Assembly (NCBI GenBank): GCA_947384955.1
Contig: CANDJC010000001.1
Coordinates: 99,623-163,622, forward strand
DNA: 64,000 nucleotides
Direction: 5' to 3'
DNA from: an uncultured Eubacterium sp.
GTDB taxonomy: Bacteria > Bacillota > Clostridia > Lachnospirales > Lachnospiraceae
Both the position numbers and the translations under genes were made by a program. Of the stretch, positions 26,930 to 64,000 are shown piece after piece. The notes under the pieces were generated by a model that searched no databases, was not told the origin of the DNA, and saw nothing but the letters and a program-made list of their open reading frames with translations. Every line of letters starts with the position of its first letter. Positions within the stretch are counted from its first letter, which is position 1.

Positions 26930-26958
26930 TTGACAAATAGATGATACGATATTATAAT
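26930..26958 (+). promoter_or_regulatory. sigma-A promoter of rplJ-rplL
   Basis: Perfect TTGACA and TATAAT with 17-bp spacing, just after rplA and before the L10 leader. Confidence 0.85.
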
Positions 26959-26970
26959 TGCAACGTATAT

Positions 26971-27095
26971 TGCCGAAGACAGCAGGTGCCGCAAGGCGTA
27001 ACTATCATAAGGCCTGCCGAGGAGTTTTTTTCAGATAGCGATATCTGTTAATGAGATTACATGCCTCCCTGTGTCTTTTGCAGGGAGGTTTTCTT
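26971..27095 (+). ncRNA. ribosomal protein L10 leader with attenuator
   Basis: The leader has the conserved L10 core (AAGACAGCAGGTG... and GGCCTGCCGAGG forming the main stem with the kink-turn region) followed by a rho-independent hairpin, CCTCCCTG (27064) pairing with CAGGGAGG (27081) plus a T-run. Free L10(L12)4 binding this RNA is known in Firmicutes to reduce rplJ-rplL expression. Confidence 0.85.
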
Positions 27096-27133
27096 CTGAG
27101 CAATACAAAAATAAATTAAGGAGGTGCTCATTC

Positions 27134-27784: not shown

Positions 27785-28147
27785 ATGACAACAGCTGAGA
27801 TTATTGAAGCAATCAAAGGCTTAACTGTATTAGAGCTGAACGATTTAGTAAAAGCATGCGAAGAAGAATTTGGCGTATCTGCAGCAGCAGGCGTTGTAGT
27901 TGCAGCAGCAGGCCCGGCAGAAGCAGCAGAAGAAAAGACAGAATTTGACGTAGAACTGACAGAAGTCGGCCCGAACAAGGTTAAGGTTATCAAAGTTGTC
28001 CGCGAAGCTACAGGCTTAGGCTTAAAAGAAGCAAAAGAAGTCGTAGACAACGCACCAAAGGTTGTAAAAGAGCAGGCTGACAAGGCTTCTGCAGAAGAAT
28101 TAAAAGCAAAACTGGAAGCTGAAGGCGCTAAGGTTACATTAAAATAA
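27785..28147 (+). CDS. rplL: 50S ribosomal protein L7/L12
   Basis: This 120-aa stalk protein has the N-terminal dimer domain, an alanine-rich hinge ([17 protein letters not shown]) and the conserved C-terminal domain [23 protein letters not shown] structured 129-bp gap separates it from rplJ (GCAGCC...GGGCTGC hairpin). In most Firmicutes rpoB follows closely, but here it lies 3.5 kb away. Confidence 0.97.
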
Positions 28148-28167
28148 TCTGAGTATGAATTATGAGG

Positions 28168-28196
28168 GAGCAGTTCTGAGAAGAACTGCTCTTTTT
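28168..28196 (+). terminator. rho-independent terminator after rplL
   Basis: GAGCAGTTCT pairs perfectly with AGAACTGCTC across a 4-base loop, followed by five Ts. Confidence 0.9.
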
Positions 28197-28240
28197 GCAT
28201 AAAGCTGCTTTTGCACAGCTGCTGGAGAAAGGTGTATAGA

Positions 28241-28927
28241 ATGAAAAAAATTTTACTGATAGAGGATGACTTAAGCTTAATCAACGGTCTGTCTTTTGCC
28301 CTGACAAAACAGGGATACATGCTGGACACTGCCCGTACCAGCGCTGAAATGCACCGAATCTGGACAGAAGGAAAATATGACCTGGTAATCCTGGATGTCT
28401 CCCTGCCAGACGGTTCCGGTTTTGACTTATGCAGGGAAATACGCCAGACCTCAAAAGTACCCCTGATGTTTCTGACTGCAGCAGACGAAGAAACAGATAT
28501 GATTATGGGACTCGATATCGGCGGCGACGACTACATCACCAAGCCATTTAAACTCGCTGTATTTATGTCCCGCATCAATGCCCTTCTGCGCAGAGGCGAT
28601 AACTTCAGCCACGCAGAACCGGAACTGTCCTCGAACGGGATTTCCGTTCATCTGCTAAAAGGAGAAGCTTACAAAAATAACGAAAAAATAGAACTGACAG
28701 CAGGAGAATATAAGCTCCTTTGTCTGTTTATGGAAAACCCTGGCAATGTGCTTTCGCCAGAACAGATTTTAAACAGACTGTGGGACTGTAACGGCGGCTA
28801 TATCGATAACAACACCATAACCGTCTACATCAGAAGACTGCGTACAAAAATTGAAGATGACCCGGGGCATCCCAAAAGGATAGTCACAGTGCGCCGCATG
28901 GGATATAAATGGAATACTTCACAATGA
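28241..28927 (+). CDS. OmpR/PhoB-family response regulator
   Basis: This 228-aa two-component regulator has a receiver domain (acidic pair in LIEDDLS, phospho-acceptor aspartate in LVILDVSLPDGSG near residue 52, LTAADEE, and ITKPFK lysine near residue 100) and a winged-helix DNA-binding domain (LTAGEYKLLCLFMENPG, then DNNTITVYIRRLR). ATG 28241 follows GGAGAAAGG. It is paired with a kinase 9 bp downstream. The overall look, with a short-loop kinase, is that of VncR/BceR-like envelope-stress systems; no partner transporter is in the window. Confidence 0.9.
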   Translation: MKKILLIEDDLSLINGLSFALTKQGYMLDTARTSAEMHRIWTEGKYDLVILDVSLPDGSGFDLCREIRQTSKVPLMFLTAADEETDMIMGLDIGGDDYITKPFKLAVFMSRINALLRRGDNFSHAEPELSSNGISVHLLKGEAYKNNEKIELTAGEYKLLCLFMENPGNVLSPEQILNRLWDCNGGYIDNNTITVYIRRLRTKIEDDPGHPKRIVTVRRMGYKWNTSQ

Positions 28928-28935
28928 GGTGCGGG

Positions 28936-29979
28936 ATGAATATACTGGTAAATGCAAAAATCAAATCACTATTTTATAAAATTCTTCTAATTATGCTTAC
29001 ATGCGCACTGATTTGCGTATGCCTTGCGGGATTGAAAGCAGAGCATGCGTCTGTTTATATTTCTATCAGCTTTCTTGGCATGACGGCCGCGGTCCTGACT
29101 GTCTTCATAAGATATTTCAAAGAACAGAACGAGATTATGGAGGAGGCGGTGACAAAGATTACACAATATATTTCCGGCACAGAGACAGCACGCATAGAAT
29201 GCAGCCAGGAAGGAGAATTATACAGGCTTTTTCACGAGGTAAATTCTCTTGTTTCTATTTTAAATGCTCACGCAGAAAATGAGAGAAGGGCAAAGCTGTT
29301 CCTAAAGGATGTCATATCGGACATTTCGCATCAGCTGAAAACGCCTCTGGCCGCCTTAAATATCTACAACGGCCTTCTTCTGGAAGAAACACAGGAGCTG
29401 CCGGAATTAAAAGAATTTGTCCTGCTTTCAGAAAAAGAACTCGACAGAATGGAAGCCCTGGTACAGAATCTCCTAAAAATCACAAAACTCGATGCCGGAA
29501 CAGTTATATTCGAAAAAGCATCTGAAAATATAGCAGACATGATGAAAGAAACCGAGATGCATTTTGCTTACAGGGCAAAGCAGGAACACAAGGAAATCAT
29601 TCTATCCGGCTCAGACACCGCGGTTCTCTTCTGCGACCGCGTCTGGATAACAGAGGCAGTCGACAATATCGTAAAAAATGCACTGGACCATACAGACAGC
29701 GGAGGCAGGATTCGCATCGAATGGAAGCAGACAGATACACTGGTGCAGATTGCGATACATGATAACGGCAGCGGAATACACCCGCAGGATTTGTACCATA
29801 TTTTCAAGCGTTTTTACCGCAGCCGCTTCTCTAAAGATACACAGGGAATCGGACTGGGACTGCCTCTGGCGAAAGTGATTGTTGAAGGGCATAATGGAAC
29901 GATAGAGGCGGACAGCCAGATGGGGAGGGGGACGGTATTTATGATAAATTTTTTGGAGGAGACTGGCATGGAGGGGTGA
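28936..29979 (+). CDS. sensor histidine kinase
   Basis: This 347-aa membrane kinase pairs with the preceding regulator. Two transmembrane helices (about residues 13-32 and 38-58) are separated by a very short loop, typical of intramembrane-sensing kinases. The H-box SDISHQLKTPLAAL, N-box DNIVKNALDH, and ATP-lid motifs DNGSGI and GIGLGLPLAK are complete. ATG 28936 after GAGGTG is preferred to ATG 28924, which overlaps the regulator stop. The pair is inserted between rplL and rpoB. Confidence 0.88.
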   Translation: MNILVNAKIKSLFYKILLIMLTCALICVCLAGLKAEHASVYISISFLGMTAAVLTVFIRYFKEQNEIMEEAVTKITQYISGTETARIECSQEGELYRLFHEVNSLVSILNAHAENERRAKLFLKDVISDISHQLKTPLAALNIYNGLLLEETQELPELKEFVLLSEKELDRMEALVQNLLKITKLDAGTVIFEKASENIADMMKETEMHFAYRAKQEHKEIILSGSDTAVLFCDRVWITEAVDNIVKNALDHTDSGGRIRIEWKQTDTLVQIAIHDNGSGIHPQDLYHIFKRFYRSRFSKDTQGIGLGLPLAKVIVEGHNGTIEADSQMGRGTVFMINFLEETGMEG

Positions 29980-30003
29980 ATTTGTGTGTGGGAATCTGGG
30001 GAA

Positions 30004-30079
30004 GGGGATTGTGGCTTTGCGGATGCCAGGGAGGATTGTGGCTTTGGGGACTCGGGGGAGGATTGTGGCTTCGCGGACG
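30004..30079 (+). repeat. three degenerate 26-28-bp tandem units beside hairpin element A
   Basis: GGATTGTGGCTT-GCGGA-GCCGGGAG-like units begin near 30007, 30033 and 30061 and lead directly into the left arm of hairpin element A. They match, in the same relative orientation, the 34-bp tandem array outside element B. Confidence 0.6.
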
Positions 30080-30317
30080 CCGGGAGAGGGAATTTGCCCT
30101 GTCTTCCCGGGGGCTGCTCCAGAATGTTAAGAAGCCCTAGGCATTCTGCGGTTATGCTGTGGCCCCGGACGGTCGCGGCACCTAGTTCGCCCTGGCTTAC
30201 AGCCATAAGCTAAAGGTGCCGCTTCGGCTTCGCCGCCTGTTTATTGAGCAGAATGCCAAGGGCTTCTAAACATTCTTCCAATGCCCCCGGGAAGACAGGG
30301 CAAATTCCCTCTCCCGG
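30080..30317 (+). repeat. hairpin element A (70-nt arm / 98-nt loop / 70-nt arm)
   Basis: Arm 30080-30149 is nearly perfectly complementary to arm 30248-30317. The loop contains an inner stem (GCGGCACCT with AGGTGCCGC) and an apical CTTA/TAAG hairpin. It has the same dimensions as element B at 30949-31186 and nearly the same loop, but different outer arm sequence. No ORF is convincing. Function is unknown; a structured RNA or a non-autonomous mobile element are both possible. Confidence 0.8.
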
Positions 30318-30948
30318 CTGGTTTTTGGGAAGCTTTACGTGCCATGGCTGGAATATGGAATTATCTTTTAACGGGATTTTAAGGGCCTCATTTTATTTAA
30401 CATCGATTTACAGTTTTTCAGATTCTAATGTATTTTTGAGAAAATCGGAACTATATATTGTATTTGGGGATGAAAGTATAATCCATATATAGCATGGAAT
30501 CAAAAATTTGTAGAGCGAAGTTTGTTTAATTATAACTGTGAAAATAATTCTGTATGGCAGACCCATATGGGTAAATCTGACAAATGGGAGTTCATTGTCT
30601 GGTTAGTTCATTTTGCATCATCAAGAGCAGTGCTCTCGAAAGATAAATCATAGCTTCAGCAGTCCGGCGCCTGTTTAATCATTCTGCATTATTTTCTAGT
30701 GACCTGTAAAGTTTAAATATATATCAAAACCAAATGACGAAAATCGAAAAGTATTTTCCTTTGCTATTAAGATTTCTGACTGGCCTGGACAGAATTTGAT
30801 AAACATTTAAACTTTACAAGGCACTAGATTCATAAAAGCACGGCTTCCACAGAGGCAAATTTTTTCATCATCAGCTCGCCAGCCATCTGCTACACAAAGA
30901 TACCGCACAGCGTTCAAACTATTTTCACGTAAAACATACGAAAACCAG
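30318..30948. other. AT-rich gene-free spacer between hairpin elements A and B
   Basis: No ORF with start context, tRNA or known RNA family is visible. It holds the small inverted-repeat element at 30695-30828. Confidence 0.55.
30695..30828. mobile_element. 134-bp MITE-like element with 24-bp imperfect terminal inverted repeats
   Basis: The 24-bp end at 30695-30718 (begins TCTAGTGACCTG) and the end at 30805-30828 are inverted copies with two mismatches around an 86-bp AT-rich interior. No transposase and no clear target duplication are seen. Confidence 0.5.
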
Positions 30949-31186
30949 CCGGATGACGGGGAGAGGACCTGGCTTCCTGTGACATCGGAGGAATGTTTAG
31001 AATCCCTTGGCATTCTGCTCGAAAACCAGGCGGCGAAGCCGAAGCGGCACCTTTAGCTGCTGGCTGCAGGCCAGGGCGAACTAGGTGCCGCGACCGTCCG
31101 GGGCCACAGCATAACCGCAGAATGCCTAGGGATTCTTAACATTCCGGAGCAGTCACAGGAAGCCAGGTCCTCTCCCCGTCATCCGG
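30949..31186 (-). repeat. hairpin element B (70-nt arm / 98-nt loop / 70-nt arm), opposite orientation
   Basis: Arms 30949-31018 and 31117-31186 pair. The 98-nt loop read on the minus strand matches that of element A except in the apical hairpin (CTGC/GCAG instead of CTTA/TAAG) and the last bases. The outer about 34 nt of each arm differ from element A yet pair with each other, so the differences are compensatory. Elements A and B face each other. Confidence 0.8.
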
Positions 31187-31444
31187 CGTCCGCGAAGCCA
31201 GACAAAATCCCGTCATCCGGCGTCCGCGAAGCCAGACAAAATCCCGCCATCCGGCGTTCGCGAAGCCAGACAAAATCCCGCCATCCGGCGTCCGCGAAGC
31301 CAGACAAAATCCCGCCATCCGTCATCCGCGAAGCCAGACAAAATCCCGCCATCATCCATCCGCGAAGCCAGACAAAATCCCGCCGTCATCCATCCGCGAA
31401 GCCAGAACTAAATCCCATCATCCGTCATCCGCGAAGCCAGAACC
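31177..31444 (-). repeat. tandem array of eight 34-bp units outside hairpin element B
   Basis: CGCGAAGCCAGA recurs at 31191, 31225, 31259, 31293, 31327, 31361, 31395 and 31430, a constant 34-bp period with one 35-bp unit at the end. Units read CATCCGGCGTCCGCGAAGCC then AGACAAAATCCCGC. The CCGGATG-CGGG part equals the outer edge of the element B arm. There are no unique spacers, so it is not a CRISPR. Confidence 0.85.
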
Positions 31445-31473
31445 TCTCCCCTCCAAAATTCTGGAAAAACTCC

Positions 31474-63891: not shown

Positions 63892-63951
63892 GTGCAGGAA
63901 AGAATGTTTACGTGTAACAGTTCGGGGGGGGGTGTTTTGGCTTCGCGGACG

Positions 63952-64000
63952 CCGGGAGAGGGGATTTGCACGGTCTTTCTGCGGCGGTTCCAGAATGTTA
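63952..64000 (+). repeat. hairpin element C, left arm only (cut by window end)
   Basis: The sequence after GGCTTCGCGGACG matches element A arm 1 at both ends (CCGGGAGAGG...; ...TTCCAGAATGTTA) but differs in the middle. A G9 run (63924-63932) and one tandem-type unit lie just upstream. The remainder of the element is outside the window. Confidence 0.65.

Follow-up and report, generated by a model that had tools for sequence, protein, structure and literature searches.

The DNA upstream of rpoB in an uncultured Eubacterium sp. (analysed here as a stretch of 64,000 nucleotides, referred to as the window) contains two copies of a long hairpin whose arms differ between the copies and nevertheless pair within each of them, which raises the question of how such pairing is kept. 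An earlier note, made from the sequence alone, offered two options: that selection maintains a structured RNA, or that the second arm is regenerated by a copying mechanism. Below, G000 is the genome containing the window, other G numbers are the compared genomes, and L numbers are loci. The relevant features of the window are the following.

30006 to 30078, plus strand: G-rich outer flank, ending with TGGCTTCGCGGAC (repeat family D4)
30079 to 30318, plus strand: hairpin copy 1, arm class A, beginning with GCCGGGAGAGG (inverted repeat, fold, model R1)
30079 to 30114 with 30283 to 30318, plus strand: outer stem of hairpin 1 (unbroken pairing)
30121 to 30149 with 30248 to 30276, plus strand: inner stem of hairpin 1 with two A.A mismatches, enclosing the apex (alignment)
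30319 to 30348, plus strand: inner tail 3' of hairpin 1, beginning with TGGTTTTTGGGAAGCTTTACGTG, like the tails of other copies (by eye)
30349 to 30917, no strand: variable interior between the tails, with two other repeats at about 30390-30523 and 30695-30828 (repeat analysis)
30918 to 30947, minus strand: inner tail of hairpin 2, beginning with TGGTTTTCGTATGTTTTACGTG (by eye)
30948 to 31187, minus strand: hairpin copy 2, arm class B, beginning with GCCGGATGACGG and facing copy 1 (inverted repeat, fold, model R1)
30948 to 30983 with 31152 to 31187, minus strand: outer stem of hairpin 2 (unbroken pairing)
31188 to 31446, minus strand: flank outside hairpin 2, with the outer end apparently amplified into 34-bp tandem repeats (repeat family D1)
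63939 to 64000, plus strand: start portion of a third hairpin copy, beginning at about 63951 and truncated by the contig end, which is also the window end (sequence read directly)

Each window hairpin is 240 bp long. The arms of hairpin 1 (30079-30149 and 30248-30318) and hairpin 2 (30948-31018 and 31117-31187) are 71 nt each with a spacing of 98 nt and show 89% and 90% complementarity, respectively, which confirms the facing 238-bp hairpins of 70-98-70 described earlier. The predicted folds of hairpins 1 and 2 have energies of -168.6 and -170.8 kcal/mol, whereas shuffled sequences average -89.0 and -89.4 (z -16.7 and -16.9), and in neither case did any of 200 shuffles equal the value. Model R1, a covariance model built on the inner stems and apices of 40 copies, scored 188.6 bits at 30118-30279 and 184.7 bits at 30987-31148. 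The outermost 36 bases pair without a break in both hairpins, and these 36-base arms differ at 19 positions between the copies, in agreement with the claim that the outer 34 nt or so are unlike and yet self-paired. The third copy, expected from 63952, was found to begin at about 63951 and to run off the contig. The reported apical change from CTTA/TAAG to CTGC/GCAG proved not to be general, as CTTA stands opposite GCAG in some of the 37 aligned copies considered next (by eye), for example in both copies of L045.

Alignment of 37 copies from G000 (columns 4-10 being excluded, where the two arm classes align with shifted gaps) revealed that 97.4% of 2068 cells are paired, versus 86.3% after shuffling. 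Changes on both sides were found in 29 of 56 pairs and in 229 cells, versus 15.9 and 68.6 in the shuffled alignments, none of 500 being as high; a change on a single side was found in one cell, and G.U in two. Since the covariation score was 0.294 versus 0.093 for shuffled alignments, with 0 of 500 shuffles reaching it, the paired change that the note had claimed is real. The number of pair types was unremarkable (115 of 500 shuffles), and 31 of the unpaired cells lie at three pairs beside the internal loop (columns 31, 35, and 36).

The outer stems of 59 copies from G000 are self-paired at 1901 of 1943 cells (97.8%), compared with 74.5% when arms are swapped between copies. The respective values are 775 of 790 (98.1%) and 66.4% for 33 copies from G003, 1666 of 1688 and 66.9% for a second set of 64 copies (mostly from G003 again), and 1332 of 1462 and 76.1% for 42 copies from G005. 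Mismatched arms with no excess covariation, the outcome named in advance as refuting, were not seen in G000 and G003. Outer-stem mismatches of the GU and AC types numbered 4 and 16 in G000, 4 and 5 in G003, 7 and 5 in the second, G003-rich set, and 92 and 16 in G005, the GU excess of the latter falling mainly on the outermost columns, which have G.T in nearly every copy. For 32-bp stems, compared in 170 of 182 elements (the other 12 were left out for failed anchors), the GU and AC counts were 4 and 11 in G000, 84 and 10 in G003 (mostly one fixed site), and 21 and 32 in G005; a single position accounts for 73 of the 114 mismatches in G003. Perfect 32-bp stems were found in 23 of 41 copies in G000, 11 of 92 in G003 (a count that would rise without its one recurrent mismatch position), and 4 of 37 in G005. 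Two A.A mismatches of the inner stem are kept in 39 of 39 (with one gap) and 40 of 40 sequences, the pairs neighbouring them covary, and the apex is conserved (alignment of 40 inner parts).

Comparison of each copy with its nearest relative indicates how such changes arise. Among copies differing at one or two of the 32 stem positions, double changes outnumbered single ones by 24 to 9 in G000 and by 179 to 50 in G003; the opposite was found in G005, with 10 double and 25 single changes. Transversions made up 15 of the 24 and 112 of the 179 nearest-copy double changes in G000 and G003, and across distance bins their share was 46-71% in G000, 57-65% in G003, and 50-60% in G005. As transversions have no G.U intermediate, stepwise compensation through G.U fits poorly for such double changes.

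Further evidence comes from G303, which belongs to another genus. There, 18 of the 19 loci read with a hairpin X have an unlike hairpin Y 83-295 bp away, always on the side opposite the GGAC border of X; GGAC stands immediately before Y in 17 of 18 cases and before X in 16 of 18, with the hairpins as delimited here. Arms were analysed in 15 of the 18 two-hairpin loci (L236, L241, and L249 were dropped as irregular, and one hairpin in L248 is partial). Arm lengths vary between copies (27, 32, 40, 58, and 69 nt in hairpin Y; 52, 55, 56, and 60 nt in hairpin X), with insertions and deletions mirrored between the arms: 29 of 30 hairpins have no gap between their own arms and the remaining one has a one-column gap. 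Mismatches occupy 15 of 540 cells in hairpin Y (AC 7, GU 2, other 6) and 44 of 799 in hairpin X (GU 20, AC 4, other 20), the latter largely at two positions mismatched in nearly all copies. In G000, G003, and this second genus, the outer arms thus differ from copy to copy, while the two arms of a copy match each other. Mirrored insertions of many bases, unlike base changes, are hardly reachable by successive selection, so copying of the arms is likely, and the data suggest that one arm is copied from the other at the DNA level, rather than the two evolving as a compensating RNA. Copying alone is insufficient, however, since A.A mismatches are left unrepaired, and selection on particular bases is also needed; the inner part of the hairpin may have an RNA function. 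Of the two options of the earlier note, arm-regenerating copying is thus favoured by the predominance of two-sided changes (229 cells, versus a single one-sided cell), the mirrored indels of G303, and the nearest copies of G000 and G003, and selection for a structured RNA fits less well, although the changes in G005 run counter to this and the A.A sites point to selection on sequence.

Hairpin copies tend to occur as facing pairs. Of 19 neighbours within 1.5 kb among 65 of the 131 places in G005, listed without being chosen as pairs, 15 were in the plus-then-minus order. Another tally gave 97 '+-', 13 '++', 11 '--', and 29 '-+' neighbours; it includes 60 hand-picked loci, partly picked as pairs, and may count a few units twice. 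Clustering of the 5' arms yielded two main classes in G000 and in G003 and less clear classes in G005; 28 arm positions were used, selected after the clustering of whole elements had set apart nothing but outliers in G000 and G005. Unlike classes were found at the two ends in 13 of the 15 pairs of G000 (7.7 expected, p 0.005, or 0.013 with three classes) and in 18 of the 21 pairs of G003 (10.6 expected, p 0.0009), with pairs assumed to be independent; in G005 the effect was not significant (9 of 14, 7.4 expected). The core is more alike between partners than between non-partners in G000 and G003: the median number of differences, of 92, was 4 for partners versus 9 for non-partners in G000 and 7 versus 13 in G003, while partners in G005 were no more alike than non-partners (10 versus 7). 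Interiors are mostly unlike between units in G000 and G003, some sharing other dispersed repeats, and at least nine G005 units have parts of one interior in common, both among the matches listed. By eye, a GACG border precedes the hairpins (it is rich in G in both G000 and G003), and CTGGTTTTCG-like tails follow them inside the pairs. Many hairpins of G005 at L071-L090 are bordered by CTAGAGCGAACAA-like sequence, which is common to other repeats of that genome.

The family is abundant in a few genomes. When 3 mismatches were allowed, a 21-base core gave 136 matches in G000, more than chance would produce, and the reversed pattern gave none. A 16-base core, for which 1 mismatch was allowed, was matched in 7 of 61 genomes: 371 times in G003, 131 in G005, 112 in G000, 39 in G010, 11 in G002, and once each in G009 (where the control likewise gave 1) and G047 (which belongs to the same order but to a different family). 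Eight of the 13 genomes of the genus have zero or one core match. G000 and G003 are draft genomes of 271 and 380 contigs, many of which end in or near hairpin copies.

A search with model R1 in 397 genomes of the bacterial family gave matches outside the genus in three other genera (E 4e-6, 4e-5, and 4e-4), and all three loci proved to be members of Rfam family RF01731, TwoAYGGAY (53, 95.8, and 64.1 bits). These weak matches between long hairpins may reflect a common plan rather than descent. The window elements matched no Rfam family: none reached the RF01731 gathering score of 43 bits, L001 gave nothing at E<=1, and the AYGGAY loop pair was not seen in the apex (alignment of 40 inner parts, by eye). 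With up to six candidates scored per genome, TwoAYGGAY was found in 65 of the 397 family genomes (63 above the cut-off), including two matches in G000, and in none of 14 controls. The stems of 23 TwoAYGGAY hairpins from six genomes span 60-185 columns, and in 6 of the 23 the stem ends no more than 2 nt from a GTCC, the sequence complementary to the GGAC border. At least five neighbour pairs within about 1 kb occur among the TwoAYGGAY matches listed, all of them (-,+), which is the same facing arrangement. A second hairpin was seen beside 2 of 30 TwoAYGGAY loci by a crude detector that recovered the locus's own hairpin in only 15. The TwoAYGGAY hairpin of L310 (G339) spans 546 bases with 246 stem columns and a fold of -366.5 kcal/mol.

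Insertion sites in sister strains, a check proposed earlier, show that some orthologous sites are empty. The spacer between the rubrerythrin and ThrE genes contains a unit in G000, where no target-site duplication was made out, and is short in G003. The rplL-rpoB spacer is short in G003, G004, G005, and G007, while G000 has a 3.3-kb insert including the window pair; in G010 this position is likewise occupied by a pair, and G002 has another gene with an apparent remnant (these comparisons were partly by eye). Positions shared between species were compared for part of the copies, giving nine locus pairs with similar flanks, two of which were inspected. The L117 and L087 copies lie beside the same gene; L084 and L171 differ, the L084 unit of G005 lying between CTAG sites at both borders and the G003 sequence of L171 being seemingly uninterrupted, in a weak alignment. 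Across 56 pairs the median distance to the 3' ends of facing genes is 54 bp (49 ends), and gene orientation shows no clear preference (16 ++, 16 -+, 15 --, 9 +-).

No mobilising enzyme was found in Y1_Tnp counts over 13 genomes, 305 loci, and a Pfam scan of interior ORFs. A link to RAYT (Y1) transposases was rejected, as the Y1_Tnp tally over the 13 genomes does not track the copies: G004 has 54 matches and no copies, G002 no matches and 11 copies. A PD-(D/E)XK nuclease was likewise discarded as the mobiliser, homologues of the L223 PDDEXK_2 protein and of an L055 ORF occurring in just 4 of 305 loci. In L223 (G197) a PDDEXK_2 'nuclease family transposase' gene (3-671) lies about 0.8 kb from a TwoAYGGAY hairpin, with no general association. 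No autonomous parent element was recognised in the 97 facing pairs, part of the copies having been read and a few interiors scanned. The interior exceeds 700 bp in seven of these pairs; ORFs from four were scanned against Pfam, giving a GNAT acetyltransferase (L037), TerD with an HTH (L153), and no match (L085, L055), and the other three (L038, L048, L061) had no ORF worth scanning. A viral origin was dismissed: two 17-base core matches occur in viral contigs, neither fitting the element profile.

The hairpin pair thus probably represents the ends of a small non-autonomous mobile DNA unit, the arms of which are renewed by copying. The two hairpins would be the two ends of one unit, with ends of unlike arm class and a variable interior. 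One arm would be rewritten from the other at the DNA level, either when replication switches template (quasipalindrome correction) or in a hairpin formed during movement, and a mutation or indel would enter both arms in one step. Recognition by a putative enzyme would depend on the conserved apex, the GGACG border, and the A.A mismatches, with the outer arms needing only to pair. Hairpins of a similar plan, with a different apex, exist in other genera of the family and are filed by Rfam as TwoAYGGAY.

The same copying could be a mere by-product of replication, ordinary quasipalindrome correction acting on inert repeats and matched arms having no role in the element. Template switching is a known process able to fix stems (in a passage of PMC8794818), and some copies decay in G005 and G415; however, such correction is expected to erase the A.A mismatches, kept in all 40 aligned copies bar one gap, and the way in which G000 and G003 combine ends of different classes points to a role for the unit, so we regard this reading as unlikely. 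It is improbable that the hairpins are a structured RNA, for instance one binding CsrA, with its stem kept through ordinary compensatory mutation. The strong covariation in 37 copies, the conserved apex and unpaired sites, and the filing of relatives as RNA family RF01731, for which CsrA binding has been proposed (a passage of PMC4333381), would all agree with an RNA; against it stand the few outer-stem G.U pairs outside fixed sites in G000 and G003 (GU/AC 4/16 and 4/5), the predominance of double changes with many transversions between nearest copies there, mirrored arm-length differences of up to 37 nt in G303, and up to 371 core matches per genome.

Service to the host, as DNA cruciforms or terminators kept between genes by host selection, would account for the closeness of facing gene 3' ends, for a pair upstream of rpoB in both G000 and G010, and, in the part of the copies compared, for L117 and L087 adjoining the same gene, but the lack of clear preference in gene orientation and the 8 of 13 genomes of the genus with no copy or one core match make it very unlikely. 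An assembly artefact, with short-read graphs merging palindrome arms into apparent identity, has to be considered because G000 and G003 are drafts with many contigs ending in or near copies, and because the near-closed genomes compared carry TwoAYGGAY rather than the window family, the stems in the one-contig G415 being less perfect. This seems most improbable, given that the A.A mismatches survive in drafts and that the TwoAYGGAY hairpin in G339, an assembly of two contigs, has 246 stem columns (18 gaps, 22 mismatches) with its outermost 60 bases matching.

The mobile unit with copied arms resembles several known systems in part. Bacterial MITEs are short non-autonomous mobile units with inverted ends, and the window family is likewise present or absent at orthologous sites; unlike in MITEs, each end is itself a long hairpin, interiors are mostly unlike in G000 and G003, and no parent element was recognised. 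Parvoviruses have two inward-facing terminal hairpins with arms renewed on copying, an arrangement similar to ours, although no replication gene or free linear form was found here. An improbable version of our reading is a cellular mobile element whose two unlike hairpin ends resemble telomeres and are renewed whenever it moves, through self-primed (rolling-hairpin) copying; its arms would be matched by construction and free to drift, and TwoAYGGAY would then be a DNA end, not an RNA. REPINs, or REP doublets, with RAYT transposases are described as non-autonomous, extragenic, inverted palindrome pairs in many copies (in part of PMC3116915), with REPs of 20-40 bp (a passage of PMC3733652). The window family shares the inverted palindrome pairs (15 of 19 neighbours in plus-then-minus order among the G005 places listed) and the many copies, but has ends of 240 bp in two classes, with variable self-matched arms, and does not track Y1_Tnp. 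In template-switch maintenance of stems in RNA genes, one event rewrites a stem half and can yield multibase compensatory change (part of PMC8794818); here, by contrast, stems are at least 36 bp, indels are mirrored, and the DNA is mobile. TwoAYGGAY hairpins are alike in being long, with a poorly conserved external stem and several copies per genome in the same bacterial family, but the window hairpins score no RF01731 match and show no AYGGAY loop pair by eye. Literature searches, judged by titles and abstract openings, gave no paper on such paired hairpins.

Stem changes on both sides are the usual evidence for a functional RNA. The very strong covariation observed here may stem from DNA copying in a mobile element, and covariation alone could therefore mislead. 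TwoAYGGAY, a candidate RNA family rated as probably RNA and probably not cis-regulatory (in a passage of PMC2864571), may deserve re-examination. Its hundreds of copies per genome, its mirrored indels, and the unrepaired A.A sites, which serve as an inner control within the same hairpin, make the family a natural system for measuring the frequency of arm rewriting.

The window pair sits within about 3.3 kb (28147-31455) between rplL and rpoB, which four sister genomes lack. Two genes of this insert were identified by Pfam, one for a response regulator at 28211-28927 and the other for a histidine kinase at 28909-29979. A 27-bp stretch of the outer end of hairpin 1 occurs three times in tandem at 30006-30086; these repeats and the 34-bp tandem repeats at 31141-31446 resemble amplified outer ends of the element. 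Inside the pair, 30695-30828 is a MITE-like inverted repeat with CTAG at each end and about 30390-30523 is another dispersed repeat; the segment 30341-30694 has 24 matches in the genome, including itself, most of them to this dispersed repeat. A ribosomal protein L10 leader (RF00557, 74.5 bits) was identified at 26955-27103.
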